Shown piece after piece: positions 43,490 to 64,000 of a DNA stretch of 64,000 bases. This DNA comes from Allomyces macrogynus ATCC 38327. Its lineage: Eukaryota > Blastocladiomycota > Blastocladiomycetes > Blastocladiales > Blastocladiaceae. Location: NCBI GenBank assembly GCA_000151295.1, contig GG745367.1, forward strand, positions 427,052-491,051, in the 5' to 3' direction. A program made the position numbers and the translations under genes. A model generated the notes under the pieces. The model was not told the DNA's origin. It made no database searches and saw only the letters and a program-made list of their open reading frames with translations. Position 1 is the stretch's first letter; each line of letters opens with the position of its first letter.

Positions 43490-43673
43490 TGTCGAAGTGT
43501 TCATCTCGCATTTGTGTTTCTTGTTTTTTGTCTTCCCTCATTGTTTCCTTGTTGGAGCTGTTCGAGTTGGATTCTTGTGTAAATAATGGTGGCAACCTAG
43601 GTTATGGTTGCCACCACCGCCAAAGTGCAGAGTGCACACACCAAATGCATTCCTCCTCCCACTCAACCTTGCA
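43490..43673 (+). repeat. copia 5' LTR
   Basis: Begins TGTCGAAGTG, ends about CAACCTTGCA, 184 bp. Matches 48994-49177, 54650-54833 and 60303-60486 in the same orientation. Contains an inner inverted repeat around GGTGGCAACC / GGTTGCCACC. Confidence 0.85.
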
Positions 43674-43677
43674 AAAG

Positions 43678-43695
43678 GTTATGAGCCCTGAGCGC
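43678..43695 (+). promoter_or_regulatory. copia primer-binding site (tRNA-Met anticodon-arm type)
   Basis: GGTTATGAGCCCTGAGCG lies just inside the 5' LTR. Its reverse complement contains CAGGGCTCATAACC, the anticodon stem-loop of a CAU-anticodon tRNA, as in elements primed by a cleaved half tRNA rather than the tRNA 3' end. Confidence 0.6.
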
Positions 43696-43884
43696 ATCCC
43701 AAGCGCTCATGGACTGAACAAACACTGCTGATATCCTTGTCGTGGACCCACTGCTGCTGTGCTCGCCAATTTCTGCGAGAAACGGACCATTTTGACCGAC
43801 TGACTGAGAGGTGACACGCTGGACCCATCTGTTACCACAATGATGACAACAACAACTGAAACTTGAACCACCACCACCTGAAAC

Positions 43885-46800
43885 ATGCTGCATCTGCTCG
43901 AGACAGCGCAACGCCGATTTTTTCGACTCGATTTTGACGATTTTTGCCAACTTTCAACCTGCACCATGACTGTCACCATGACCTCGTCTGTTTTGGTCAA
44001 GATGCCGATCTCTGGCCAACCAGTGACAATTGAGATGCTCAAGGCCAATGGCTCGAACTGGCCAATGTTTGCCAACCATTTTCTTGGCTTTTTGACTGCT
44101 GACCAGCTTGAAGACCTGCTTGAACTCAAGTCCTTCAAGGTTTTGGTTGACACTGATTTCGAGGTTGTGTTGCTGGAACAGCAAGAGGAAATGATGGATG
44201 CGCAATTCAAGAAACTCATTGAGCTCGACTCGGACATCAAGTTTGTTGCCAATGCGATCTATTGGAATGGTCCTGTGGGTGCTGAATGCAAGAAGTACAT
44301 GGCCCACAACAACAAGGCCAAGTTGTGCATCCAGACCATCATCAAGGTCATTTTGCTGTCTGCTGTTGTGTCTGAACTCCTGCTGGTCTTCTCGGACACC
44401 ACCTGTGTCACTGATGCATGGGTGCTGCTGTGCGCTTGTTTTGACAAACATTCTGTGCAAGCCCATCTTGCTAACATCAAGGGGTTGTTCACAAAGCCCA
44501 TGTCGGGTTTTGGTGCTACAGTGGTTCATGAGCACATTGCCAATTTGCAACGCTGTTTTGAAGTGATTTGGTGCCATGAACGTGCCAAGTCGTCCTCGCA
44601 CCTGCACACCAACTTTGCAGACTTGTTCTTGGTCCTCGCACTGCTCTCCTTGCTGCCGCCTGAGTATTCACCAATGGTGCTCTCCTTGGGCGAGCACTAT
44701 GAGGAAATGGCGCTTGTCGAATTACAGACAATTCTTGAGGGGGCCACCGACCAGCTCAAATGCAGCTCTGAGACTGAGACGCAGGGGCTTGTTGTGACAA
44801 AGCGCAAGGACACGAACACCTGTAACAACTGTGGCAAGATTGGTCATTATGTGCGCTTTTGCCTGAACTGGGACCACCAGCGCAAGAACGGCGATGAAAC
44901 CGCGAACTGGCACAAAAAGAAGGGCGCAAATGTTGTGGCCAAGGACGGTGACAAACATGCAATGGTGCATTTGTTGGTGGACAAGTATGAGCGTTTGATG
45001 GCGTCTGCCTGTGGTGCGGACGCCACTGGTGTTGTATTTGGTGCTGCTGAATTTGACGGATTTGCACACTACCCGATTGTCGCCCTCTGCCCCAAAATCG
45101 TGAGACTTGAACGTCAAAGCCATCAGGGCATGGTGATGCCGCCCAGCACGTACCCGCCCATCATTCATGTCAATGCATCGAATTATGAAGGACCAGATCC
45201 TCACCATCATCGTGCGCATGCACTGATGCCTTTGTCGGCGTGCGCACGTCTTGCACAGAGCCTGAAAGTCGACTCGGCTGCTGGTGTGCACTTTTGCAGT
45301 GACAAGTTGCTGTTTGCTATGCTCAACGACATGCGGCCTGGCGAAGGGTTCCTCGTCTCACTGGGTGACCACCACGTGTGCCATCTGATTGGTAAGGGCA
45401 CGATGCGCATCCGCACGCCTTCAGGCAACATTGTTCACCTCAACCCAGTCTGGTACATTCCCGGCTTCAAGACTCTTGTCTCAGTCTCTGAGCTGTACGA
45501 TTGGACTGCTGTGCGAGTCATCTTTAGGGATTGAGACGTCCAAATCGTGCATTGTGAGACTGGGGATCTGCTCGCCAAGGGCGTGTGGCATGGTGATATG
45601 TGGATCGTCCCAGGCGTGTGCGAGAAGGGACCAACCAAGGACGCGTGGGTGCTCGGCGTTTGGGGTAAGCGACCTGTTGGTGCGCATGTCGCCGATGTGG
45701 TCAAGAAGGTGTCGCTCGCCGAGTTGTGGCACGCGCGACTCTTTCACATTGGTCATGATCGCGTTTCGGCCGTGTGTATGCTCGAGCATGGCGTCAAGGA
45801 CGACGTGGGTGTGGTCAAGCCGCTACACGAGTGCATGACGTGTCTTGTGGCCAACGCGCGCAGCCAGCCGCATCTGCTGCGCCATTTGCGTGCAAATCGA
45901 CTATTTGGCGTCCTCCACGCTGATTTGGTGTCGATGAAGACGGTCGGCATGGGGGGTGTCAACTACTTTGCGACAGTCACGGACGAGTACTCACACTGGT
46001 GCTTCGTGCTGCTTCTCCGGCGTAAGGGCGACTTTGGACTGCAGTTTCTCGATTTGCTGAAGCACGCCGAGTCGTTCTTCGGCGTGTCTGCGGGCCGGCT
46101 GCACAGCGACCATGGTGGTGAGTTCATCGGCAACAGTTTATGCTCGATTCTGCTCTCACGTCGCATGCACTTGTCGACAACGTCTCCAAACTCGCCAGAG
46201 TCAAATGGGCTTGCCAAGCGGACGCAGGGTGTGCTCAAGTCGATGGTGCGTGCGGCCATGATGGCCGCCAAGGCGCCGGATTCCCTCTGGCCAAAGTGTG
46301 TGCGCACGGTGTGCTATGTGCGCAACCGTGTGCCAAGTGACTCGCTCGGTGGCTGCTCGCCATACCAGGTTGTTTTCAGCGCGTCACCCAACATGTCGAA
46401 GTGCAAGGTGTGGGGCTTGCTTGGTGGCGCTGTTGTTCCGACAACGCAGGCGCATCAGGGCGCGTCCGGATTTGCTGCAGTTGTGGCAGTGCGCATGGTT
46501 GGCTATGGAGATGAGTTGCCGTGGGTCACACGCAATGGCTACCGTGTGTGGGACGGACAGAAGGTGTTTGTCACGCGTGATGTCAAGTTTGCCGAGCGGC
46601 TCTGTGTTGCAGAGTCACGTGTTGTTGCTGGTGCTCCTCGCACGTTGCCATCGGCCAAGTTCAAGGTTGGGTCGCCCGTGCGAGTTGATTTGGGGTCGCT
46701 GGACGTGCCGTCGACTGTGGTCGATGGTGTTGGTGGCGATGAAGTTGTTGATGAGGAGATCAGGCGTGGTGCGCGGCGTGATCAAGTTCAAGTGCCTATG

Positions 46801-48972
46801 GCGGTTCCGGATCAACTTCCCGCAGTCAACCTGATTGCCGAGCTCCCACTGGCGGGGCCAGCGTTGGAGCGCGATTTTCTACAAGCCGGCGAGAGACCCA
46901 GTTTGCTGCAAGTGGACCAGGAACCAATGGGGGTCCTCGTGGACGTGGGGGAGCCCAGTCGTCAGGCCAATGCGCCAGAAGTGAGTGATGGGGGTGTTGG
47001 TGCTCTTCGACCTGATGCTCATGCGCCCGTCGCGCGGCAATTGTGCCATTTGCGCGGCCTACAGCCCGAGGTCGCTCGCCGTTTTGATCCCGACGCCAAT
47101 GCCCGTGTCTGCAGTATGCCCGACATGGGGGAGGTGGATCCTGAACCTAAAAGGGGCGTCGAACGTGCTGCTGACGCAGTTGAGAATGTGCGCATGTTGC
47201 AGCTGAATAGTGATTGCACTGATGCTTCAGCCCCTCTTGTTCGTTCCCTAGCTGGCCCTGGTGTTGACTCAGGCTCGCCCCTGTCCGGAATTGTTGATCT
47301 CGATTTGCCGACACTGTTTCTATGTGCGCACCTGGACTCGGATCTCAGCAAGTCTGTTGAGTTGGCAAGTGCGGTGCTCGCATGCGTTGCCGCAGCTCAA
47401 GTCGGCGCCCAGGGTGCAGTTTGGGATCCCAAGACGGTCGAGGAAGCGCTAGCGCACCCGGACTGGCGCGCGCCGACATTTGACGAGTACAACTCGCTCG
47501 TCGAGAATGGGACATGGGTGCTCGTCAACCGCCGCCCAGGCGACAAGGTGATGCGCTCCGGTTGGATCTTCAAGTGGAAACTCGGGGCAGACAGAAAGCC
47601 CATGCGTGCCAAGTCGCGACTTGTTGCCAAGGGATACACGGCCATTCCAGGCGTGCATTACACGGACACGTTTGCGCCTGTTGCGTTGTTTGACACGCTG
47701 CGTCTGATCCTGTCGCTCGCCGCGTATCTCAAGGTCTGGCCGCTGCAGCTCGACATCAAGACGGCCTTCCTGTACGGTTACATCAAGAAGCACGTGCTCA
47801 TGGAGCAGCCACCAGGCTTCATTGACAAGAAGAACTCGGACAAGGTCTGCATGCTCGTTAAGGCGCTGTACGGCACCAAGCAGGCCCCGCGCATGTGGTT
47901 CTGCCATTTGGCCGATTACCTGATTTCGCTCGGATTCGTGGAGTCCAAGTATGACAAGTGCCTGTTCATGCACAAGATGGGCAAGGGCGTGATCTTCCTT
48001 GGAGTCTATGTCGACGACTTGCCGATTGTCGCGTCTACCAAGGAGCTGCGCAAGTGGATTGTCGACAAGTTGAAGTCCGAGTTCAAGGTGCACGACTTGG
48101 GCGATGCAGCATGGTTGCTCGTGTGCAAGATTACGTACAGCAACGACGGGTTGATTTACCTTGACCAGAGCCAGTACATCAAGTCAATGGGCAAGCGGTT
48201 CCAGATCCCCAAAAAGATGCGGCCGGTGATCCCGATGCGACCCAACGACTTCAAGGAGCTGCTCGATTTGCCCAAGATCATTGATCCAGTCGTGAAGACC
48301 GAGTACCTCGCCATTGTCGGGTCGCTGCTCTTTGCGGCGACCAAAACGCGGCCGGACATTGCCACTGCGACTGCAATTCTTGGCCGTTTCATGCATGCAC
48401 CTGGTATGCTACATCTCGTGGCCGCAAAGCGGCTTGTTGGGTACCTGTTGGGCACGTCGAACCTCGGCATCAAGTTTTTGGGCAAGGATATGAAACTTGA
48501 CGCGTTAGCTGATGCCGATTGGGCCAAGGATCGTGGCGACCGCAAGTCGACGTCGGGTTTTGTGATATGGGTTGGCGGTAGCCCTGTTGCCTGGCGCTCG
48601 AAGAAGCAGACGCTCGTGGCAAAGTCGACCATGGCTGCAGAGTACGTGTCGGCAAGCTTAGCAGACGACACGATCCTCACGATATGCGCGCTGCTGGAAG
48701 AGCTCGGGTACAAACAGGATGGACCGATGCTGCTCATGGAAGATAACGAGTTGGCGGAGCATGTCGCCAAGGACGCGCTGCTCTCGTCGAAACACGTTGA
48801 GATCCACGCCCACTGGTTGCAGGACCAAGTTGCCAAGAAAACGATTGACCTGCGGCGCGTGGACACGGAGAACCAGATTGCCGACATTTTGACCAAGCCG
48901 CTTGCTGCTCCTGCATTCCGCAAGCTTCGTGACATGATTGGAGATGCGAAAGTGATTGCTCCGCGCACGTAG
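43885..48972 (+). CDS. copia Gag-Pol polyprotein with one in-frame TGA
   Basis: A single frame of 1,696 codons is broken only by TGA at 45532-45534. Before it: Gag, the CCHC knuckle CNNCGKIGHYVRFC (about 44826), and the aspartic protease motif KVDSAAGVHFC (about 45268), with DSA in place of the usual DSG. After it: integrase zinc finger (WHARLFHIGH...CMTC), catalytic residues in LHADLVS, LHSDHGGEF and NSPESNGLAKR, reverse transcriptase with PLQLDIKTAFLYG and catalytic YVDD (about 48009), and RNase H with DADWAKDRGDRKSTSG and AKSTMAAEYV. It would form virus-like particles and integrate cDNA. The stop either inactivates it or is read through; a loss by CGA to TGA is plausible given the neighbouring gypsy copies. 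Confidence 0.88.
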
Positions 48973-48986
48973 GGAATGCTCGCCGT

Positions 48987-48993
48987 GGGGGAG
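48987..48993 (+). promoter_or_regulatory. copia polypurine tract
   Basis: GGGGGAG immediately before the 3' LTR, the plus-strand primer site. Confidence 0.65.
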
Positions 48994-49177
48994 TGTCGAA
49001 GTGTTCGTCTCGCATTTGTGTTTCTTGTTTATTGTCTTCCCTCATTGTTTCCTTGTTGGAGCTGTTCGAGTTGGATTCTTGTGTAAATGATGGTGGCAAC
49101 CTAGGTTATGGTTGCCACCACCACTGAAGTGCAGAGTGCACACACCAAATGCATTCCTTCTCCCGCTCAACCTTGCG
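48994..49177 (+). repeat. copia 3' LTR, shared with the tandem array
   Basis: 184 bp, TGTCGAAGTG to CAACCTTGCG. The neighbouring gypsy sequence starts right after it, with no target-site duplication. Confidence 0.85.
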
Positions 49178-52100
49178 AAACGTGGTTCCGGATTGAAACG
49201 TTTTTGGATTTCGGGTGCTTGTCCAAGCAACCGGCGCGACTTGTGGTTCTCGTTCAGGGAAGCAGGTTCAGGAGCAGCAGTGACATGATCAGGTGGCAGC
49301 GCAATCTCGTCATACTCGCCAATGCCATCATCAGGTTCGTCGCCAGAGTCAGAGGTATTGCTTTCGTCAGTGCGATCTTGGCCTTGTGCTGGCGCACCAC
49401 CCAAAGGTGCCTGTTTTAAGTGGTCGGCGTGGAAGACATCGTGAACACGGTTGGCGGTTATACGATCCGGTAGTTCGAGCTGGAAGCTCACAGGGGAGCG
49501 TTGAGCAATGACCTTGAACGGTCCAATATACGATGGCCGGAGCTTGGCTGTGACTGGAAGTCCAGCAGTATCGGCGTTCAGGTTGTGTGCATTGAGCATG
49601 ACGAAATCGCCGATTAGTGGTTGCCAAACAGCTGCTTGGTTTCAAGGATTGCGTTGCAGCATGCGCTGCTGCGAGTCCAAGATGGCGTCATGAATACGGA
49701 GAAGTCATGAGGCCAGGTCGCTGAACATCAGTGGATCGAGACAAGTGGCTGTAAACGTGGTTGCTGGAAGTCGAGGTAGCATGCCAACAGCTGCTTGGAG
49801 TGGTGACATGCCGAGATCGTGATGGCGGGCAGAGTTGTACGTCAACTGCACAATCGGAACCATGTCCTCCCACCGCGTGCCGTCAAGACCGTGCAGTGCT
49901 GTTTTCAAGATGCGAGGGAACTCGCGGTTGGTCACTTCGGCCTGGCCATCGCTCTGCGGGCGATAAGCTGTTGTCGGCTTGAGCTTCGTGCCAAGACGTT
50001 TCCACAAGTACGTGAAGACCTGTGCACGGAAGAGAACGTCGCGATCGGAGACAATGGACGCGGGAAGCGAAAAGTACTTGACCCACTCCTTGAACAGAAT
50101 TTCCGCAGCATCCTCGGCCGTGATTGTGTCGCGGCATGGCACGAAGACAGCGTACTTGGTAAAGCGGTCAACAATGGTGAGGACCTGGTTGTTGCCTGCG
50201 CGCGACATCGGGAGCCCCCTGATGAAGTCCATGAAATTTCCGAGAACGGCCCTGTTGGAATGGGAAGCGGCTGTACTTGTTGGGGCGGCTGGTTACGGGT
50301 TCGAAACTTGGCACAGGTCGTGCACTTCTTGACTAGCGACTCGACGTCGTGGTAGAGGCCGGGCCAGTAGAGTCCTTGCGCAGCGAGATAGTACGTCCGC
50401 GCAATACCAAGATGCGCGACGCCATTATCGTGATGATGTTCGGCGAGAAGTTGCGCGCGCAAGTCATCAGCGTCAGGGACGACGAGTCGAATCTAGCCAA
50501 AATGATTCTTGAGGTACAGAAGGCCTTCGAGGTGAATAAAGTTGCGGTGCGTATGCGACGTGTGGGGACCAAGGGGTTGCGCGAGCTGCGTCAAGATGGC
50601 TTGGCACCATTCGTCTTGGTCGTAAGCGGCACGAATCCGATCCAAGACCTCGTCAGCCGAAGCATGAGCAGTATTGATTTCCGATAGTTCGACACGCTTG
50701 AGGGGCAAGGTTGGCGGCTCTGGAGGATTCGCAGGGTCCGCCACGTAGTCAGGTTGGCGGGAGAGCGCATCAGCGATTGAGTTCTTGGCCCCAGCAATGT
50801 GCTTGATCGTAAATGGCATGAACGACTGGATCAGATCCAGAGCGGCACGTTGAGCTCAAGTCAGATCGTGTTTCTTGTTGAGGAAATGCGACAGTGCTTG
50901 GTTGTCAGCGAAGATCATGAATTTGCGACCCTCGACCAGGTACCCATCATACTCCTTGAGCGAATCGCGAACGGCCAAGAGCTCAAGGTCATGAGCGGGA
51001 TAATTGCGCTCCATCGGCTTGAGTTTGCGCGAATTGAACGACAAGACCTTGCCATTCTGCACCAAAGCAAAGCCGAGACCAAACGAGCTTACATCGCAAT
51101 AAATTTCGAACGGCAGGCCTGGGTCAATCGGCGTCAGTGCCACTGAGTCAGCGATCAGCCTCTTGATTTCAGCAAATGCAGCGACTGCTAGCTTAGTCTC
51201 GAAGGCATCCCTTGGCGTTCCGTCGGTTAGCAAGTCAGAGAGTGGCGCGACGATGCTCGAGTAGTGGGGAACGTGCGCAGAGAGGTACTGGGCCAATCCG
51301 AGAAATTGTTGGACATCGTTGCGAGTCTTGAGCAGCGGCCAATCCATAATCGACTTGATTTTCTTTGGGTCCGGGCGGATTTCGCCATTGCGAATGACGT
51401 GGCCCAGGAAATGCACATGGTCGTTGGCGTAGGAAGCCTTTTTGGGCGTCGCGTAGAGTCGTTGTTGGCGCAAAGTAGCAAAGACAGCGTCCAAGTGGTT
51501 TGCGTGCTCGTCCATCGTGTCGCTGAAGATCACGACGTCGTCAAAGTAGAAGGCAATGAACTCGTCGCCCAAGTGGCCAAGAACGGAGCGCATCATACGC
51601 GAAAAAGCGGATCCAGCGCCTGCGAGCCCGAATGGCATGACGGTGAACGCAAAGTTGCCAAGCGGGCAGGTGAACGTGGTCCAGACTTGCGAGTCTGGGT
51701 GAACGTGCAGTTGGTGGTAGCCGGAAGCAAGGTCAATCGCAGTGAAAATTTTCGCTTTTGCGACGCGAGAGCGCAACTCGTCGGAATGAGGGATCGGGTA
51801 CGGATCGACAATCGTGGCTGCATTGATGGTGCGAAAATCGACGCACATGCGCAAGTCGCCGTTCTTCTTCTTGACAAACAGAATTGGTGAAGCGAACGGC
51901 GCGTCGCTTGGTTTGATGGCCCCACGCTGCAGGAGCGATGCAATCTCCTTCTTCAGTGCTTCGTGCTCCAATGCCGATAGACGAGGGATGCGAGGCCGTG
52001 GGTATTCAAAGTTCGGCGCGAGTCGGATCTGGAAATCGAGCGGGCCACGATCGGGCGGCTGGAAGCCTTTGGGCAAACCGTTCAAGACATCCTTGTACTT

Positions 52101-53999
52101 GTGCAGGATCGGTTCGATGATTGCGCGGTCGGATGGTGAGAGATGGTTGATGTCAGGTGCAAAGTTGGTGCTTGAGGTGGCAGCTCGAAGCTCGATCGCA
52201 AAGACTGGGCCATCAGCGTTGCGCATAGCACGGCCGAAACCGTTCATGGAGACAGCAGCAATGCTGATGCTGCACCCTGGCGTTGTGCCAGGTATCGGAC
52301 GAGAGTATTCGTCGCCGAGTCGGTTTTTCATGACGCCAGTTGTCCAATCAATGTCCGGGTTCATGTTGGCAAGCCAAGTCATGCCCAGGATGGCCTGGAA
52401 ATCGGCGCCGTTGAGCAGGTAAAAGAATTCGCGCGAGATGAACTTTCCGACTTGCACATCGAGCCAAACGCCCTTGGTCAGAGCACGGGTCTGGCCATCT
52501 AGAGCACGGGTCTGGCCATCTGCGAGAACGCAGTCGACTTGAACGTCGACAGTCTTGGATTCGCCGGTGCGTTTCAGGATTGACGAGTTGAGAAAGTTGG
52601 CACCAGCACCACAATCAATCTTGGCGCGAAGTTGAGCTTGCTGTGGGCCAAGCGAGGCCGTGTGCGAAAATACCGAGCGCGTTCATGCTGAGCCAAGTGA
52701 AATGCGCTGAGGTGTTGCGTCATCAGAGCATTCAGAATCGTCGGTTTCGATCTGCATCAGAACATTATCGACAACCTTGGACACGCCATCTTCAATGCCA
52801 GCAGTTGCGACCTCGACCTTCTTCCCACACGACTTGATGCGGGTGAGTAGGTCCGCCGGGCAACCGTCGTAGCGACCACGGCGAGGGTTACCGCCTTGCG
52901 AGAGACACTGCAAGTTGCTGTGCGACGTGGTCATATGGTACAGGCATCCGTACGAGTCGACAATGTTGTTGCGGTCAAAGTTGCTGCTTGGTGTGCGGTC
53001 AGACTGCTGGCACGGTGAACCGAATCGAGTACGTTGGTTGCCAACGTTGTTGCGGTACGTCGGCTGCGGCTTCAGAGCCGCCAGGTCAATGTCCATGGGG
53101 TCGTCCAGCCCCGTGGTGTGGCCAATCGAGTGTGCTTCGAGCAATGCCTGGACGATCTCCTGGTGCGTCAAGTGTTCACGTCTGTCGCCCGCCTTCTGGA
53201 CCTCGCCGAGAGCACGGGCCAGTTCTTTGCGGGCTCGAGAGTTAACGCGTCCACGCAACAGGCGGAAGTACTCGGCGTCGGACATGTTGCTGACACAGCT
53301 GGCGTGCTCATCAAATTGTTTCAAGAATTCGAATGGGGGAGTATTGCCCTGCCGCAACCGTTCGAGCGCCTTTTACAAGTCGGTGCCAATCGTCAAGGGC
53401 ACAAAGTAAGTGCGGAGCATGTTGATGACCTCGGTCCAGTGCGTTGTCGGAATAGGTTGCGCCGTGCGCCGCCAAAACGCAATCGCCTCGCCAGAAAGTT
53501 GGCCAATAACAAATCGGATCTTGTCTTGTTCGGTCCAGCCACAACCGTTGAGGTAGAGTTCGAGCTTGAGCTGGAATGTGTCCAGAGCACCAATGTCACG
53601 AGAGCCATCAAACGTCGGCTTGTCCATGGCCCGTTGGACCGAGATTGAGTGATCTTGACTGGCGACAGCAGCTGCGGCGGCTTCAGCAGCAACACGAGTG
53701 GCAGTGGCACCCATGCTCATCCAGATAGACTGCGCTGCCACATTTGCAATGGATTCGTGTGGCTTGGTGAGCGTTCCATCATGCGAGACTTGCCAATAGC
53801 TCTTTTCCTTGACAGCATTATTGACAAATGCGACATGGGTATCGTTGGTGGCATCGAGTTTGACCGACGAAATCGAGGTAGTGGCAGTTGCGCCAGAGCG
53901 TTCGTCGATGAACGCATTGTATCCAGAGACGGTCGTGCCTGCGTAACGTGGCACGAGAACGAGAACTTGTTGGGAGGAAGAAGAAGCCTTGGGCGGCAT
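49178..53999 (-). pseudogene. gypsy Gag-Pol, copy 1, with six in-frame stops and one frameshift
   Basis: From ATG 53999 one frame runs through Gag (FRLLRGRVNSRARKELA and a C/H knuckle), protease (KIDCGAGANFLNSS), RT (FVKKKNGDLRMCVDFR, AIDLASGYHQL, catalytic FDD in FYFDDVVIF), RNase H (CDVSSFGLGFALVQNGK, KHIAGAKNSIADALSR) and the integrase zinc finger. Stops interrupt this frame: TAA at 53373, TGA at 52683, TGA at 50856 and TAG at 50493. Near 50232 the frame shifts by one base; the integrase core follows (IVDRFTKYAVFVP, IVSDRDVLF, QSDGQAEVTNR), then TGA at 49705 and, in this copy only, TGA at 49641. The last ORF reads on into the copia LTR. A 21-bp tandem repeat lies in the protease-RT linker (DGQTRAL twice). 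Not autonomous. Confidence 0.85.
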
Positions 54000-54235
54000 T
54001 GTTGTGTTGGTACGTGTGCGAATCGAGTATCGAGAGAGAATGTGCCGTGAAGGCGAGAGATTCGTCGTGAATGCAGAGGAAAGCGCGAGGGTGTAGTGAA
54101 GGTGATGGAGCCGTGAAGGCTTTGAGGTGCGGACTGAGCGGCCATGCGCGAGGAGTCGTCACGGACAGACGCTATCAAAATGATATGGTGTCGAGTGTGG
54201 AATGAGCCTGTTGTACCCAGACGAACGTTTGGACG

Positions 54236-54243
54236 TTTATATA
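54236..54243 (-). promoter_or_regulatory. TATA box of gypsy copy 1
   Basis: TTTATATA on plus gives TATATAAA on minus, about 235 bp upstream of the Gag ATG; the same site lies at 59889-59896 in copy 2. Confidence 0.5.
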
Positions 54244-54324
54244 CATGGAATGACAAACGGGAATCAACAACAACAACAACGGGTTTGCAAAGGAGCGATA
54301 CGGGTAGCTCTGCTTCACATCAGA

Positions 54325-54649
54325 CACGATCCTCACGATGCGCGCGCTGCTGGAAGAGCTCGGGTACAAACAGGATGGACCGACGCCGCTCATGGAAGAT
54401 AACGAGTCAGCGGAGCGTGTCGCCAAGGACGCGCTGCTCTCGTCGAAACACGTTGAGATCCACGCCCACTGGTTGCAGGACCAAGTTGCCAAGAAAACGA
54501 TTGACCTGCGGCGCGTGGACACGGAGAACCAGATTGCCGACATTTTGACCAAGCCGCTTGCTGCTCCTGCATTCCGCAAGCTTCGTGACATGATTGGAGA
54601 TGCGAAAGTGATTGCTCCGCGCGCGTAGGGAATGCTCGCCGTGGGGGAG
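54325..54649 (+). pseudogene. copia Pol tail fragment, array copy 1/2 junction
   Basis: Carries the last 96 codons of copia RNase H (from MRALLEELGYKQDG through KHVEIHAHWLQDQ to the TAG at 54626-54628), the polypurine tract and the LTR boundary. Nearly identical to 48679-48993, but fused directly to the gypsy leader in opposite orientation. It has four or five substitutions relative to the full-length copia. Confidence 0.85.
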
Positions 54650-54833
54650 TGTCGAAGTGTTCGTCTCGCATTTGTGTTTCTTGTTTATTGTCTTCCCTCA
54701 TTGTTTCCTTGTTGGAGCTGTTCGAGTTGGATTCTTGTGTAAATGATGGTGGCAACCTAGGTTATGGTTGCCACCACCGCTGAAGTGCAGAGTGCACACA
54801 CCAAATGCATTCCTTCTCCCGCTCAACCTTGCG
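54650..54833 (+). repeat. copia LTR, array unit 2
   Basis: 184-bp copy of the LTR at 48994-49177, offset 5,656 bp. Confidence 0.9.
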
Positions 54834-57800
54834 AAACGTGGTTCTGGATTGAAACGTTTTTGGATTTCGGGTGCTTGTCCAAGCAACCGGCGCGACTTGC
54901 GGTTCTCGTTCAGGGAAGCAGGTTCAGGAGCAGCAGTGACATGATCAGGTGGCAGCGCAATCTCGTCATACTCGCCAATGCCATCATCAGGTTCGTCGCC
55001 AGAGTCAGAGGTATTGCTTTCGTCAGTGCGATCTTGGCCTTGTGCTGGCGCACCACCCAAAGGTGCCTGTTTTAAGTGGTCGGCGTGGAAGACATCGTGA
55101 ACACGGTTGGCGGTTATACGATCCGGTAGTTCGAGCTGGAAGCTCACAGGGGAGCGTTGAGCAATGACCTTGAACGGTCCAATATACGATGGCCGGAGCT
55201 TGGCTGTGACTGGAAGTCCAGCAGTATCGGCGTTCAGGTTGTGTGCATTGAGCATGACGAAATCGCCGATTAGTGGTTGCCAAACAGCTGCTTGGTTTCG
55301 AGGATTGCGTTGCAGCATGCGCTGCTGCGAGTCCAAGATGGCGTCATGAATACGGAGAAGTCATGAGGCCAGGTCGCTGAACATCGGTGGATCGAGACAA
55401 GTGGCTGTAAACGTGGTTGCTGGAAGTCGAGGTAGCATGCCAACAGCTGCTTGGAGTGGTGACATGCCGAGATCGTGATGGCGGGCAGAGTTGTACGTCA
55501 ACTGCACAATCGGAACCATGTCCTCCCACCGCGTGCCGTCAAGACCGTGCAGTGCTGTTTTCAAGATGCGAGGGAACTCGCAGTTGGTCACTTCGGCCTG
55601 GCCATCGCTCTGCGGGCGATAAGCTGTTGTCGGCTTGAGCTTCGTGCCAAGACGTTTCCACAAGTACGTGAAGACCTGTGCACGGAAGAGAACGTCGCGA
55701 TCGGAGACAATGGACGCGGGACGCGAAAAGTACTTGACCCACTCCTTGAACAGAATTTCCGCAGCATCCTCGGCCGTGATTGTGTCGCGGCATGGCACGA
55801 AGACAGCGTACTTGGTAAAGCGGTCAACAATGGTGAGGACCTGGTTGTTGCCTGCGCGCGACATCGGGAGCCCCCTGATGAAGTCCATGAAATTTCCGAG
55901 AACGGCCCTGTTGGAATGGGAAGCGGCTGTACTTGTTGGGGCGGCTGGTTACGGGTTCGAAACTTGGCACAGGTCGTGCACTTCTTGACTAGCGACTCGA
56001 CGTCGTGGTAGAGGCCGGGCCAGTAGAGTCCTTGCGCAGCGAGATAGTACGTCCGCGCAATACCAAGATGCGCGACGCCATTATCGTGATGATGTTCGGC
56101 GAGAAGTTGCGCGCGCAAGTCATCAGCGTCAGGGACGACGAGTCGAATCTAGCCAAAATGATTCTTGAGGTACAGAAGGCCTTCGAGGTGAATAAAGTTG
56201 CGGTGCGTATGCGACGTGTGGGGACCAAGGGGTTGCGCGAGCTGCGTCAAGATGGCTTGGCACCATTCGTCTTGGTCGTAAGCGGCACGAATCCGATCCA
56301 AGACCTCGTCAGCCGAAGCATGAGCAGTATTGATTTCCGATAGTTCGACACGCTTGAGGGGCAAGGTTGGCGGCTCTGGAGGATTCGCAGGGTCCGCCAC
56401 GTAGTCAGGTCGGCGGGAGAGCGCATCAGCGATTGAGTTCTTGGCCCCAGCAATGTGCTTGATCGTAAATGGCATGAACGACTGGATCAGATCCAGAGCG
56501 GCACGTTGAGCTCAAGTCAGATCGTGTTTCTTGTTGAGGAAATGCGACAGTGCTTGGTTGTCAGCGAAGATCATGAATTTGCGACCCTCGACCAGGTACC
56601 CATACTCCTTGAGCGAATCGCGAACGGCCAAGAGCTCAAGGTCATGAGCGGGATAATTGCGCTCCATCGGCTTGAGTTTGCGCGAATTGAACGACAAGAC
56701 CTTGCCATTCTGCACCAAAGCAAAGCCGAGACCAAACGAGCTTACATCGCAATAAATTTCGAACGGCAGGCCTGGGTCAATCGGCGTCAGTGCCACCGAG
56801 TCAGCGATCAGCCTCTTGATTTCAGCAAATGCAGCGACTGCTAGCTTAGTCTCGAAGGCATCCCTTGGCGTTCCGTCGGTTAGCAAGTCAGAGAGTGGCG
56901 CGACGATGCTCGAGTAGTGGGGAACGTGCGCAGAGAGGTACTGGGCCAATCCGAGAAATTGTTGGACATCGTTGCGAGTCTTGAGCAGCGGCCAATCCAT
57001 AATCGACTTGATTTTCTTTGGGTCCGGGCGGATTTCGCCATTGCGAATGACGTGGCCCAGGAAATGCACATGGTCGTTGGCGTAGGAAGCCTTTTTGGGC
57101 GTCGCGTAGAGTCGTTGTTGGCGCAAAGTAGCAAAGACAGCGTCCAAGTGGTTTGCGTGCTCGTCCATCGTGTCGCTGAAGATCACGACGTCGTCAAAGT
57201 AGAAGGCAATGAACTCGTCGCCCAAGTGGCCAAGAACGGAGCGCATCATATGCGAAAAAGCGGATCCAGCGCCTGCGAGCCCGAATGGCATGACGGTGAA
57301 CGCAAAGTTGCCAAGCGGGCAGGTGAACGTGGTCCAGACTTGCGAGTCTGGGTGAACGTGCAGTTGGTGGTAGCCGGAAGCAAGGTCAATCGCAGTGAAA
57401 ATTTTCGCTTTTGCGACGCGAGAGCGCAACTCGTCGGAATGAGGGATCGGGTACGGATCGACAATCGTGGCTGCATTGATGGTGCGAAAATCGACGCACA
57501 TGCGCAAGTCGCCGTTCTTCTTCTTGACAAACAGAATTGGTGAAGCGAACGGCGCGTCGCTTGGTTTGATGGCCCCACGCTGCAGGAGCGATGCAATCTC
57601 CTTCTTCAGTGCTTCGTGCTCCAATGCCGATAGACGAGGGATGCGAGGCCGTGGGTATTCAAAGTTCGGCGCGAGTCGGATCTGGAAATCGAGCGGGCCA
57701 CGATCGGGCGGCTGGAAGCCTTTGGGCAAACCGTTCAAGACATCCTTGTACTTGTGCAGGATCGGTTCGATGATTGCGCGGTCGGATGGTGAGAGATGGT

Positions 57801-59977
57801 TGATGTCAGGTGCAAAGTTGGTGCTTGAGGTGGCAGCTCGAAGCTCGATCGCAAAGACTGGGCCATCAGCGTTGCGCATAGCACGGCCGAAACCGTTCAT
57901 GGAGACAGCAGCAATGCTGATGCTGCACCCTGGCGTTGTGCCAGGTATCGGACGAGAGTATTCGTCGCCGAGTCGGTTTTTCATGACGCCAGTTGTCCAA
58001 TCAATGTCCGGGTTCATGTTGGCAAGCCAAGTCATGCCCAGGATGGCCTGGAAATCGGCGCCGTTGAGCAGGTAAAAGAATTCGCGCGAGATGAACTTTC
58101 CGACTTGCACATCGAGCCAAACGCCCTTGGTCAGAGCACGGGTCTGGCCATCTAGAGCACGGGTCTGGCCATCTGCGAGAACGCAGTCGACTTGAACGTC
58201 GACAGTCTTGGATTCGCCGGTGCGTTTCAGGATTGACGAGTTGAGAAAGTTGGCACCAGCACCACAATCAATCTTGGCGCGAAGTTGAGCTTGCTGTGGG
58301 CCAAGCGAGGCCGTGTGCGAAAATACCGAGCGCGTTCATGCTGAGCCAAGTGAAATGCGCTGAGGTGTTGCGTCATCAGAGCATTCAGAATCGTCGGTTT
58401 CGATCTGCATCAGAACATTATCGACAACCTTGGACACGCCATCTTCAATGCCAGCAGTTGCGACCTCGACCTTCTTCCCACACGACTTGATGCGGGTGAG
58501 TAGGTCCGCCGGGCAACCGTCGTAGCGACCACGGCGAGGGTTACCGCCTTGCGAGAGACACTGCAAGTTGCTGTGCGACGTGGTCATATGGTACAGGCAT
58601 CCGTACGAGTCGACAATGTTGTTGCGGTCAAAGTTGCTGCTTGGTGTGCGGTCAGACTGCTGGCACGGTGAACCGAATCGAGTACGTTGGTTGCCAACGT
58701 TGTTGCGGTACGTCGGCTGCGGCTTCAGAGCCGCCAGGTCAATGTCCATGGGGTCGTCCAGCCCCGTGGTGTGGCCAATCGAGTGTGCTTCGAGCAATGC
58801 CTGGACGATCTCCTGGTGCGTCAAGTGTTCACGTCTGTCGCCCGCCTTCTGGACCTCGCCGAGAGCACGGGCCAGTTCTTTGCGGGCTCGAGAGTTAACG
58901 CGTCCACGCAACAGGCGGAAGTACTCGGCGTCGGACATGTTGCTGACACAGCTGGCGTGCTCATCAAATTGTTTCAAGAATTCGAATGGGGGAGTATTGC
59001 CCTGCCGCAACCGTTCGAGCGCCTTTTACAAGTCGGTGCCAATCGTCAAGGGCACAAAGTAAGTGCGGAGCATGTTGATGACCTCGGTCCAGTGCGTTGT
59101 CGGAATAGGTTGCGCCGTGCGCCGCCAAAACGCAATCGCCTCGCCAGAAAGTTGGCCAATAACAAATCGGATCTTGTCTTGTTCGGTCCAGCCACAACCG
59201 TTGAGGTAGAGTTCGAGCTTGAGCTGGAATGTGTCCAGAGCACCAATGTCACGAGAGCCATCAAACGTCGGCTTGTCCATGGCCCGTTGGACCGAGATTG
59301 AGTGATCTTGACTGGCGACAGCAGCTGCGGCGGCTTCAGCAGCAACACGAGTGGCAGTGGCACCCATGCTCATCCAGATAGACTGCGCTGCCACATTTGC
59401 AATGGATTCGTGTGGCTTGGTGAGCGTTCCATCATGCGAGACTTGCCAATAGCTCTTTTCCTTGACAGCATTATTGACAAATGCGACATGGGTATCGTTG
59501 GTGGCATCGAGTTTGACCGACGAAATCGAGGTAGTGGCAGTTGCGCCAGAGCGTTCGTCGATGAACGCATCGTATCCAGAGACGGTCGTGCCTGCGTAAC
59601 GTGGCACGAGAACGAGAACTTGTTGGGAGGAAGAAGAAGCCTTGGGCGGCATTGTTGTGTTGGTACGTGTGCGAATCGAGTATCGAGAGAGAATGTGCCG
59701 TGAAGGCGAGAGATTCGTCGTGAATGCAGAGGAAAGCGCGAGGGTGTAGTGAAGGTGATGGAGCCGTGAAGGCTTTGAGGTGCGGACTGAGCGGCCATGC
59801 GCGAGGAGTCGTCACGGACAGACGCTACCAAAATGATATGGTGTCGAGTGTGGAATGAGCCTGTTGTACCCAGACGAACGTTTGGACGTTTATATACATG
59901 GAATGACAAACGGGAATCAACAACAACAACAACGGGTTTGCAAAGGAGCGATACGGGTAGCTCTGCTTCACATCAGA
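54834..59977 (-). mobile_element. Ty3/gypsy body, array copy 2 (degenerate)
   Basis: Near-identical to copy 1. Shares its stops TAA (59026), TGA (58336), TGA (56512), TAG (56149), the frameshift near 55888 and TGA at 55361. Differs in lacking a 3-bp codon in RNase H (EYGYLVEG versus EYDGYLVEG) and in having CGA where copy 1 has TGA near its 3' end. Gag starts at 59652. Confidence 0.88.
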
Positions 59978-60302
59978 CACGATCCTCACGATGCGCGCGC
60001 TGCTGGAAGAGCTCGGGTACAAACAGGATGGACCGACGCCGCTCATGGAAGATAACGAGTCAGCGGAGCGTGTCGCCAAGGACGCGCTGCTCTCGTCGAA
60101 ACACGTTGAGATCCACGCCCACTGGTTGCAGGACCAAGTTGCCAAGAAAACGATTGACCTGCGGCGCGTGGACACGGAGAACCAGATTGCCGACATTTTG
60201 ACCAAGCCGCTTGCTGCTCCTGCATTCCGCAAGCTTCGTGACATGATTGGAGATGCGAAAGTGATTGCTCCGCGCGCGTAGGGAATGCTCGCCGTGGGGG
60301 AG
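59978..60302 (+). pseudogene. copia Pol tail fragment, array copy 2/3 junction
   Basis: Same 96-codon tail and polypurine tract as 54325-54649, 5,653 bp further on and essentially identical. Confidence 0.88.
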
Positions 60303-60486
60303 TGTCGAAGTGTTCGTCTCGCATTTGTGTTTCTTGTTTATTGTCTTCCCTCATTGTTTCCTTGTTGGAGCTGTTCGAGTTGGATTCTTGTGTAAATGAT
60401 GGTGGCAACCTAGGTTATGGTTGCCACCACCGCTGAAGTGCAGAGTGCACACACCAAATGCATTCCTTCTCCCGCTCAACCTTGCG
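60303..60486 (+). repeat. copia LTR, array unit 3
   Basis: 184-bp copy of the LTR at 54650-54833, offset 5,653 bp. Confidence 0.9.
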
Positions 60487-61436
60487 AAACGTGGTTCTGG
60501 ATTGAAACGTTTTTGGATTTCGGGTGCTTGTCCAAGCAACCGGCGCGACTTGCGGTTCTCGTTCAGGGAAGCAGGTTCAGGAGCAGCAGTGACATGATCA
60601 GGTGGCAGCGCAATCTCGTCATACTCGCCAATGCCATCATCAGGTTCGTCGCCAGAGTCAGAGGTATTGCTTTCGTCAGTGCGATCTTGGCCTTGTGCTG
60701 GCGCACCACCCAAAGGTGCCTGTTTTAAGTGGTCGGCGTGGAAGACATCGTGAACACGGTTGGCGGTTATACGATCCGGTAGTTCGAGCTGGAAGCTCAC
60801 AGGGGAGCGTTGAGCAATGACCTTGAACGGTCCAATATACGATGGCCGGAGCTTGGCTGTGACTGGAAGTCCAGCAGTATCGGCGTTCAGGTTGTGTGCA
60901 TTGAGCATGACGAAATCGCCGATTAGTGGTTGCCAAACAGCTGCTTGGTTTCGAGGATTGCGTTGCAGCATGCGCTGCTGCGAGTCCAAGATGGCGTCAT
61001 GAATACGGAGAAGTCATGAGGCCAGGTCGCTGAACATCGGTGGATCGAGACAAGTGGCTGTAAACGTGGTTGCTGGAAGTCGAGGTAGCATGCCAACAGC
61101 TGCTTGGAGTGGTGACATGCCGAGATCGTGATGGCGGGCAGAGTTGTACGTCAACTGCACAATCGGAACCATGTCCTCCCACCGCGTGCCGTCAAGACCG
61201 TGCAGTGCTGTTTTCAAGATGCGAGGGAACTCGCGGTTGGTCACTTCGGCCTGGCCATCGCTCTGCGGGCGATAAGCTGTTGTCGGCTTGAGCTTCGTGC
61301 CAAGACGTTTCCACAAGTACGTGAAGACCTGTGCACGGAAGAGAACGTCGCGATCGGAGACAATGGACGCGGGAAGCGAAAAGTACTTGACCCACTCCTT
61401 GAACAGAATTTCCGCAGCATCCTCGGCCGTGATTGT

Positions 61437-61719
61437 TGTTGGAATGGTGAATCCAGCACTGCTGTCCTTGATCAGGTTTTGGTGCAGTGGTTAACTCAAC
61501 AGGTTATGAGCCCTGTGTGCGCAGAGGTCCTGGGATCGAACCCCAGTTGCGACAGTTGACATTTGGAGCCCAAAAGAGGGGGAAAAAGGAATCCTCGCCC
61601 CTCCAGCTGACCCCAGGTAACTGAAGTTGCAGCAGATACTGGCTTCAGGGGGAGTGTTGGAATGGTGAATCCAGCACTGCTGTCCTTGATCAGGTTTTGG
61701 TGCAGTGGTTAACTCAACA
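61437..61719 (+). mobile_element. TRIM-like miniature LTR retrotransposon
   Basis: 283 bp with identical 65-bp terminal direct repeats (61437-61501 and 61655-61719), each starting TGTTG and ending CAACA. Flanked by the 5-bp target duplication ATTGT (61432-61436 and 61720-61724); gypsy copies 1 and 2 have the uninterrupted site. GGTTATGAGCCCTG follows the first repeat, matching the copia primer-binding site, and GGGGGAG precedes the second, matching the copia polypurine tract. No coding capacity. Identical repeats imply a recent insertion, probably mobilised in trans by the copia family. Confidence 0.8.
61473..61560 (+). other. tRNA-like segment (pol III box A and box B) inside the TRIM
   Basis: TGGTGCAGTGG (about 61480) fits box A, and GGGATCGAACCCC (about 61535) fits box B in a perfect CTGGG/CCCAG T-arm stem with an A-T-C-G-A loop as in initiator tRNA. 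An anticodon-like hairpin ACAGG...CCTGT lies between. The acceptor strands do not pair, so it is not a working tRNA gene; it is either a tRNA-derived (SINE-like) head or a coincidence of the priming region. Confidence 0.4.
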
Positions 61720-64000
61720 ATTGTGTCGCGGCATGGCACGAAGACAGCGTACTTGGTAAAGCGGTCAACAATGGTGAGGACCTGGTTGTTGCCTGCGCGC
61801 GACATCGGGAGCCCCCTGATGAAGTCCATGAAATTTCCGAGAACGGCCCTGTTGGAATGGGAAGCGGCTGTACTTGTTGGGGCGGCTGGTTACGGGTTCG
61901 AAACTTGGCACAGGTCGTGCACTTCTTGACTAGCGACTCGACGTCGTGGTAGAGGCCGGGCCAGTAGAGTCCTTGCGCAGCGAGATAGTACGTCCGCGCA
62001 ATACCATGATGCGCGACGCCATTATCGTGATGATGTTCGGCGAGAAGTTGCGCGCGCAAGTCATCAGCGTCAGGGACGACGAGTCGAATCTAGCCAAAAT
62101 GATTCTTGAGGTACAGAAGGCCTTCGAGGTGAATAAAGTTGCGGTGCGTATGCGACGTGTGGGGACCAAGGGGTTGCGCGAGCTGCGTCAAGATGGCTTG
62201 GCACCATTCGTCTTGGTCGTAAGCGGCACGAATCCGATCCAAGACCTCGTCAGCCGAAGCATGAGCAGTATTGATTTCCGATAGTTCGACACGCTTGAGG
62301 GGCAAGGTTGGCGGCTCTGGAGGATTCGCAGGGTCCGCCACGTAGTCAGGTCGGCGGGAGAGCGCATCAGCGATTGAGTTCTTGGCCCCAGCAATGTGCT
62401 TGATCGTAAATGGCATGAACGACTGGATCAGATCCAGAGCGGCACGTTGAGCTCAAGTCAGATCGTGTTTCTTGTTGAGGAAATGCGACAGTGCTTGGTT
62501 GTCAGCGAAGATCATGAATTTGCGACCCTCGACCAGGTACCCATACTCCTTGAGCGAATCGCGAACGGCCAAGAGCTCAAGGTCATGAGCGGGATAATTG
62601 CGCTCCATCGGCTTGAGTTTGCGCGAATTGAACGACAAGACCTTGCCATTCTGCACCAAAGCAAAGCCGAGACCAAACGAGCTTACATCGCAATAAATTT
62701 CGAACGGCAGGCCTGGGTCAATCGGCGTCAGTGCCACTGAGTCAGCGATCAGCCTCTTGATTTCAGCAAATGCAGCGACTGCTAGCTTAGTCTCGAAGGC
62801 ATCCCTTGGCGTTCCGTCGGTTAGCAAGTCAGAGAGTGGCGCGACGATGCTCGAGTAGTGGGGAACGTGCGCAGAGAGGTACTGGGCCAATCCGAGAAAT
62901 TGTTGGACATCGTTGCGAGTCTTGAGCAGCGGCCAATCCATAATCGACTTGATTTTCTTCGGGTCCGGGCGGATTTCGCCATTGCGAATGACGTGGCCCA
63001 GGAAATGCACATGGTCGTTGGCGTAGGAAGCCTTTTTGGGCGTCGCGTAGAGTCGTTGTTGGCGCAAAGTAGCAAAGACAGCGTCCAAGTGGTTTGCGTG
63101 CTCGTCCATCGTGTCGCTGAAGATCACGACGTCGTCAAAGTAGAAGGCAATGAACTCGTCGCCCAAGTGGCCAAGAACGGAGCGCATCATACGCGAAAAA
63201 GCGGATCCAGCGCCTGCGAGCCCGAATGGCATGACGGTGAACGCAAAGTTGCCAAGCGGGCAGGTGAACGTGGTCCAGACTTGCGAGTCTGGGTGAACGT
63301 GCAGTTGGTGGTAGCCGGAAGCAAGGTCAATCGCAGTGAAAATTTTCGCTTTTGCGACGCGAGAGCGCAACTCGTCGGAATGAGGGATCGGGTACGGATC
63401 GACAATCGTGGCTGCATTGATGGTGCGAAAATCGACGCACATGCGCAAGTCGCCGTTCTTCTTCTTGACAAACAGAATTGGTGAAGCGAACGGCGCGTCG
63501 CTTGGTTTGATGGCCCCACGCTGCAGGAGCGATGCAATCTCCTTCTTCAGTGCTTCGTGCTCCAATGCCGATAGACGAGGGATGCGAGGCCGTGGGTATT
63601 CAAAGTTCGGCGCGAGTCGGATCTGGAAATCGAGCGGGCCACGATCGGGCGGCTGGAAGCCTTTGGGCAAACCGTTCAAGACATCCTTGTACTTGTGCAG
63701 GATCGGTTCGATGATTGCGCGGTCGGATGGTGAGAGATGGTTGATGTCAGGTGCAAAGTTGGTGCTTGAGGTGGCAGCTCGAAGCTCGATCGCAAAGACT
63801 GGGCCATCAGCGTTGCGCATAGCACGGCCGAAACCGTTCATGGAGACAGCAGCAATGCTGATGCTGCACCCTGGCGTTGTGCCAGGTATCGGACGAGAGT
63901 ATTCGTCGCCGAGTCGGTTTTTCATGACGCCAGTTGTCCAATCAATGTCCGGGTTCATGTTGGCAAGCCAAGTCATGCCCAGGATGGCCTGGAAATCGGC

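Follow-up and report, generated by a model that had tools for sequence, protein, structure and literature searches.

A 283-bp TRIM of Allomyces macrogynus with a putative Pol III promoter split across its LTR boundary and a probable Copia helper

Background

How might an LTR element of only 283 bp, without coding capacity, be transcribed, primed and moved, and which other element might lend it the proteins? The question is raised by positions 61437-61719 of a 64,000-nucleotide stretch of DNA (the window; C36:427052-491051 in the contig numbering of the assembly) from Allomyces macrogynus, a blastocladiomycete water fungus with an assembled genome of 54.0 Mb in 75 contigs. A protein encoded on the same contig, C36, matches AMAG_15422 of A. 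macrogynus ATCC 38327 at 100% identity over 369 aa. An initial annotation, made from the letters of the window alone, had described a young TRIM and suggested that it uses the proteins and the tRNA primer of a neighbouring copia. The reading favored here, at a probability of roughly 0.57, is that of a minimal non-autonomous TRIM that would be transcribed by Pol III through promoter boxes split between LTR and internal region, mobilized by the family of the window copia (Copia-A) and primed by a half of initiator tRNA-Met.

Structure and insertion site of the element

By LTR comparison the element is bounded on the + strand by two 65-bp LTRs (5' LTR, 61437-61501; 3' LTR, 61655-61719), which are identical at 65/65 bp, start with TGTTG and end with CAACA. 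A primer-binding site, GGTTATGAGCCCTG, directly follows the 5' LTR (61502-61515), and the polypurine tract GGGGGAG, seen by direct reading, directly precedes the 3' LTR (61648-61654). With two LTRs, a length of 283 bp, below the limit of 1000-1500 bp for TRIMs, no retrotransposon proteins and copies elsewhere that have different target-site duplications, the element has the makeup of a TRIM. In the window the duplication is ATTGT, at 61432-61436 on the left and 61720-61724 on the right. When the flanks are joined they reproduce two uninterrupted sister sites, 49928-50327 at 100% and 55584-55983 at 99.75% identity, in which the empty site itself occupies 50117-50139 and 55773-55795. The identical repeats, the 5-bp duplication and the intact empty site in sister copies, all described initially, are thus confirmed.

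The surrounding sequence (48667-64000) is a tandem repeat with a period of 5656 bp and units 99.1-99.8% alike. These units contain gypsy-like pol sequence as well as a copia 3' end, and the TRIM interrupts the third. Since two sister units have an intact empty site, the TRIM inserted later than the tandem repeat arose.

Direct reading of the 65-bp LTR found neither a TATA box nor AATAAA. The LTR contains a TTTT at its positions 41-44 (61477-61480), which is the sole T4 run on the + strand of the element, recurs in the 3' LTR, and is proposed below as a Pol III terminator and end of R.

Distribution and target sites of the TRIM family

The TRIM family occupies at least 32 loci, comprising at least 11 that have two LTRs or more, 19 solo LTRs and 2 fragments with a single end; all are lower bounds, with a triplicated site on C59 counted as one locus. 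The initial description, a young LTR element that is present in many copies and encodes nothing, is therefore supported, where a lone copy would have spoken against it. Among the 11 two-LTR loci an exact 5-bp duplication is present at zero shift in 8 and with a one-base shift in 1 (C28); the remainder are C14, with 4/5 bases matching, and C68, where a 3/5 match is taken as none. The solo LTRs, read by eye, give an exact duplication in 14/19, a 4-of-5 match in 4/19 and none in 1/19 (C37). Identical LTR pairs occur in 5 of the 11 two-LTR loci, a measure that at 65 bp has little dating power.

The TTTT is unchanged in 39/39 LTRs of exactly 65 bp, a count that takes in 39 of 46 LTRs (7 of other length are left out), counts a single insertion three times at the C59 tandem repeat, and includes paired LTRs, which are not independent. 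Of the 7 left out, at least 2 have a changed TTTT (C34 and one of C68).

Several TRIM insertions sit within the family of the window copia, e.g. in C51, C49:37188, C14:157062 and C53, and at these sites the uninterrupted window copia shows a 5-bp overlap of the TRIM flanks. Both flanks are Copia-A sequence at 12 of the 32 TRIM or solo-LTR loci; in C68 and C37 they derive from different parts of Copia-A.

Some loci depart from the simple pattern. At C44:55460-55649 (L019) a 5'-truncated TRIM, starting at about element base 95, lies inside Copia-A gag with GCTAC on either side, as if a shortened cDNA ending in TG had integrated. C14:157062-157562 (L015) holds TRIM units joined head to tail, three LTRs and two internal regions in all. 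The C59 site consists of one solo LTR and the same flanks repeating every 3901 bp (120594, 124495 and 128396), i.e. a tandem host or repeat unit. Two of the 10 matches to GGGGGAGTGTTGG are non-TRIM (L043 and L044), with no primer site or TRIM-like sequence within 301 bp at each.

Primer-binding site and candidate helper

The reverse complement of GGTTATGAGCCCTG equals nucleotides 26-39 (sequential numbering) of tRNA genes called Met(CAT) by ARAGORN. Drosophila copia takes a 39-nt 5' half of tRNA-iMet as its primer. For fungal Helenus elements and their Copias, the anticodon region of tRNA-iMet and of other tRNAs is described as the primer (PMC10886601). Complementarity of this kind suggests that a 5' half of initiator tRNA-Met would prime the TRIM, a proposal that goes beyond the initial annotation.

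Exact copies of the 14-mer number 87 in the 54-Mb genome versus 0 for a reversed control pattern, so its sharing is not due to chance. They fall into 53 in Copia-A (28 and 20, the window copy, and 4 assigned by an adjoining Copia-A LTR), 22 in tRNA-iMet genes (13 by ARAGORN and 9 by likeness, one of which, L130, is truncated), 9 in TRIMs, 2 in a second family termed Copia-B, and 1 odd copy. The last (L045, C58:394176) lies in no recognized element, 64 bp from the 14-mer of a tRNA-iMet gene, whose ATCGAAAC T loop we take to be initiator-like. At C5:41499-64768, tRNA genes (Asn, Lys, Met, Thr and Ala among those read) recur about every 6.43 kb in the manner of a tandem array. Among the 13 TRIM units that keep the primer-site region, the 14-mer is exact in 9 and altered by one base in 4; the copies thus do not carry different primer sites, which would have told against the initial proposal.

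The proposed helper, Copia-A, was delimited in the window at 43490-49180 (+ strand) by element comparison. It has 187-bp LTRs at 43490-43676 and 48994-49180, an ORF with Pol_BBD (43885-45534) and an ORF with rve and RVT_2 (45547-48972). By direct reading its primer site is at 43677-43690 and its polypurine tract at 48987-48993; in agreement with the initial annotation, GGTTATGAGCCCTG is directly 3' of the 5' LTR in both elements and GGGGGAG adjoins both 3' LTRs. A search with the reverse transcriptase of the window copia gave 81 matching places in the genome, 76 of them at 62-100% identity. The other five are a short piece at 50% and four places, one at C75:248006 and three on C68, at 29-31%. 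Named matches in a homology search with this reverse transcriptase were mostly plant copias.

The likeness extends into the LTR. GGGGGAGTGTTGAAGTGT, 18 exact bases across the junction of polypurine tract and LTR, is common to the C56 and C68 TRIMs and 3 of 12 Copia-A junction rows. The 3' LTRs of these two TRIMs start with TGTTGAAGTGT, as in the same fraction of copia rows (3/12), and the other 9 rows differ by 1-2 bases. The remaining TRIM rows have 8-12 bp in common with Copia-A at this junction; the pattern used misses the TRIM copy at C65:910922, whose tract is GGAGGAG. The initial statement that the LTRs are unrelated to those of the copia therefore holds for the LTR bodies and fails for their first bases. 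At the other end the two families have no common U5 terminus: Copia-A LTRs begin with TG and finish with AAA rather than CA in 24/25 rows (e.g. window 43676 and 49180), versus CAACA in the TRIM. Four Copia-A LTRs without an adjoining primer site or polypurine tract are candidate solo LTRs, of which one has an exact 5-bp duplication (CCCCA).

Copia-B was considered as a source of the proteins. Its copies (C75:244970 and C68:201787; L106 and L107) are degenerate: over some 4.9 kb they agree at about 86%, and their coding part is broken into several shorter ORFs. The low-identity reverse-transcriptase places at C75:248006 and two of those on C68 fall within these copies. In Copia-B the 14-mer directly follows an LTR ending in ACA, like the TRIM, whereas Copia-A ends in AAA; the 14-mer alone therefore cannot single out one helper. 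That Copia-B, or an element that the assembly lacks, rather than Copia-A, serves as helper is nonetheless unlikely: the exact 14-mer is present in only two Copia-B copies, no LTR pair was found for them (part of L107 reads N), and the 18-bp junction, compared with Copia-A only, matches Copia-A.

The primer site and polypurine tract could also be generic or independently acquired, and hence say nothing about the helper. Polypurine tracts are of low complexity, and the fungal copias and Helenus families treated in PMC10886601 repeatedly have primer sites for the anticodon part of tRNA-iMet. We regard this as quite improbable, since classifying the sites across the genome leaves a single abundant copia, and the match of 18 bp at the junction exceeds both signals. 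The helper is thus probably the Copia-A family of the window, which is well supported because of the 14-mer classification and the 18-bp junction, despite the differing 3' ends of the LTRs. For the initial suggestion that the TRIM uses the proteins and primer of this copia, the dominance of its family (76/81 reverse-transcriptase matches) and the junction speak in favor; the occurrence of the 14-mer in Copia-B and the AAA versus CAACA ends speak against.

A tRNA-like unit at the LTR boundary

A feature absent from the initial annotation is a box A/box B unit that spans the LTR boundary. By box consensus, a box A-like TGGTGCAGTGG was matched at positions 44-54 of the LTR (61480-61490) and a box B-like GATCGAACC in the internal region (61534-61542), with the primer site between them. 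A T-arm-like hairpin, CTGGG-ATCGAAC-CCCAG, is located at 61530-61546. Box A plus the next 3 bases differs from the D arm of tRNA-Val(CAC) by a single transition.

In a test chosen after the sequence had been seen, box A and box B spaced 30-75 nt apart arose in 33 of 20,000 dinucleotide shuffles, and none of the 20,000 combined the pair with a perfect 5-bp T stem. Twenty tRNA genes passed the same test in 12 cases, 10 with the stem. On both strands of 271,342 bp (the window, L022-L042 and L106, partly overlapping) the pair was found at two places only, both TRIM copies. Genome-wide, TGGTGYAGTGGTTA, the box A 14-mer, has 42 matches (control 0), comprising 30 in TRIM LTRs, 11 in tRNA-Val(CAC) genes and 1 outside both. 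The last (L147, C25:321310-321400), outside any recognized LTR or tRNA, is possibly an old LTR relic. The divergent C56 TRIM has different sequence around box B, yet still fits the box (GTTCAATTC). The pair is present in 7 of the 13 TRIM-bearing loci, and box B has been lost in 4 of the 11 two-LTR loci.

By the covariance-model threshold and ARAGORN, the unit is not a tRNA gene. An Rfam search with 101 bases aligned the tRNA model end to end at 13.4 bits (E 1.9), below the gathering threshold of 29, and ranked an unrelated snoRNA family higher (14.3 bits, E 0.12). With 601 bases (61300-61900) Rfam returned no tRNA at E <= 1 and only a chance miRNA match, and ARAGORN called no tRNA within the window. 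The tRNA-like stretch folds no better than shuffled sequence (113/200 equally good). Among 32 sequences compared, the best tRNA matches differ by half: the A half fits Val, and the B half fits Ala (score 26), then Met (25). Shuffles reached these scores in 10/1000 cases for A (2/1000 for a tighter A segment) and in 3/1000 for B; L147, a non-tRNA with an A-half score of 36, was left out of this comparison. The B segment of the C56 TRIM is closest to Thr (32), then Val (28). Derivation of the whole unit from tRNA-iMet was considered and not kept, the B half scoring 25 against 26 for Ala and the A half fitting Val.

Taken from sequence, these features suggest a Pol III promoter divided by the LTR boundary. 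An ordinary TRIM, likewise mobilized by Copia-A but dependent for its transcription on Pol II or on read-through from neighboring genes, would account for the weak tRNA score, the lack of a special fold and the four two-LTR loci without box B; its tRNA-like stretch would not act as a promoter and would be a captured tRNA or SINE relic, or in part due to chance. For SMART, an element of similar size, the authors left dependence on host-gene transcription open (PMC3281118). The ordinary TRIM is possible at clearly less than even odds. Against it stand the joint signature of box A, box B and T stem, far above shuffles and background, the location in tRNA-Val genes of 11 of the 12 box A 14-mers outside TRIM LTRs, and a 65-bp LTR without TATA box or AATAAA.

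Proposed replication cycle

In the split-promoter reading, Pol III would be recruited by box A of the 5' LTR together with the internal box B and would start about 10-26 nt upstream of box A, a spacing as in tRNA genes. A stop at the TTTT of the 3' LTR would leave an RNA with a terminal redundancy of about 11-27 nt. Paired to GGTTATGAGCCCTG, a 5' half of initiator tRNA-Met could be extended by the Copia-A reverse transcriptase, the second strand may be primed at GGGGGAG, and integrase would insert the product, with the 5-bp target duplication that is observed along with the empty sites. As both promoter boxes would be within the RNA, the LTR could do without a Pol II promoter, and its small size of 65 bp would be accounted for; solo LTRs are predicted to be silent because they are without box B. 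Against the model counts the TTTT of the 5' LTR, which closely follows the proposed start and should risk early termination.

A fuller version adds an origin to this arrangement. With box A in U5, the primer site at the anticodon-arm position and box B internal, a tRNA-derived, SINE-like transcript may have become an LTR element by gaining Copia ends. Initiator tRNA-Met would pair inside the tRNA-like unit, the short redundancy would depend on where Pol III starts and on the TTTT, and the LTR would be without a promoter of its own. To this whole we give not quite an even chance.

Relation to known elements

SINEs have no LTRs and, with a tail, are mobilized by LINEs. The element described here, with paired and solo LTRs and 5-bp duplications, is no SINE. 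The boundary between SINEs and LTR elements is less sharp where a TRIM has a Pol III promoter, and the TRIMs of this kind described in PMC10886601 hold the small-RNA sequence within the LTR. Pol III promoter motifs, as expected of a TRIMp3, are present in 7 of the 13 TRIM-bearing loci, and Pol III transcription is predicted.

Helenus (TRIMp3; Kojima 2024, PMC10886601) is alike, as characterized there, in being a coding-less TRIM with tRNA-like boxes A and B, a primer site and a polypurine tract. Fungal Helenus elements further show 5-bp duplications and mostly an anticodon-part tRNA-iMet primer, and are thought to depend on Copia elements with unrelated LTRs (PMC10886601); a tRNA primer site, a 5-bp duplication and a Copia-like primer site are all found in the window TRIM. 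In contrast, Helenus by definition has the tRNA-like sequence within its LTRs and measures 311-1263 bp (PMC10886601), versus 283 bp here, with box B outside the LTR and the primer site between the boxes. Because box B (61534-61542) is outside the LTR and only box A (LTR 44-54) within it, the window TRIM is not classed as Helenus, though it would work in like manner. The host phylum is absent from Table 1 of PMC10886601.

Cassandra, a 5S-carrying TRIM, has a Pol III promoter whose start and terminator are reported to leave an 18-bp redundancy, similar to the 11-27 nt proposed for the window TRIM; according to the same account it differs in a 5S-type promoter within the LTR, a length of 565-860 bp and occurrence in land plants (PMC10886601). 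SMART/FRetro129 resembles the window TRIM in size (292 bp), TGT...ACA ends and a 5-bp duplication, and has a primer site, a polypurine tract and an 11-bp LTR motif in common with its autonomous helper, the LTRs being otherwise unlike. It differs in 85-bp LTRs with a TATA box, an internal region 96% identical to part of the helper, and grass hosts (PMC3281118); "tRNA" and "polymerase III" are absent from the main text of that paper. Neither a split box A/box B layout nor an Allomyces TRIM was found in the parts of the open-licence PMC literature covered, which is not proof of absence.

If true, the split unit explains the shrinkage of the LTR to 65 bp and the promoterless solo LTRs, and predicts a short redundancy that can be measured. 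With one abundant copia and divergent TRIMs sharing its junction, the identity of a TRIM helper becomes testable in this fungus, which is grown in laboratories and is not known to be a pathogen. The window TRIM was also considered as the smallest LTR element, a claim rejected on the report of CcaRetroS9, a TRIM of the plant Cajanus with 52-bp LTRs and a length of 233 bp (PMC4717578).
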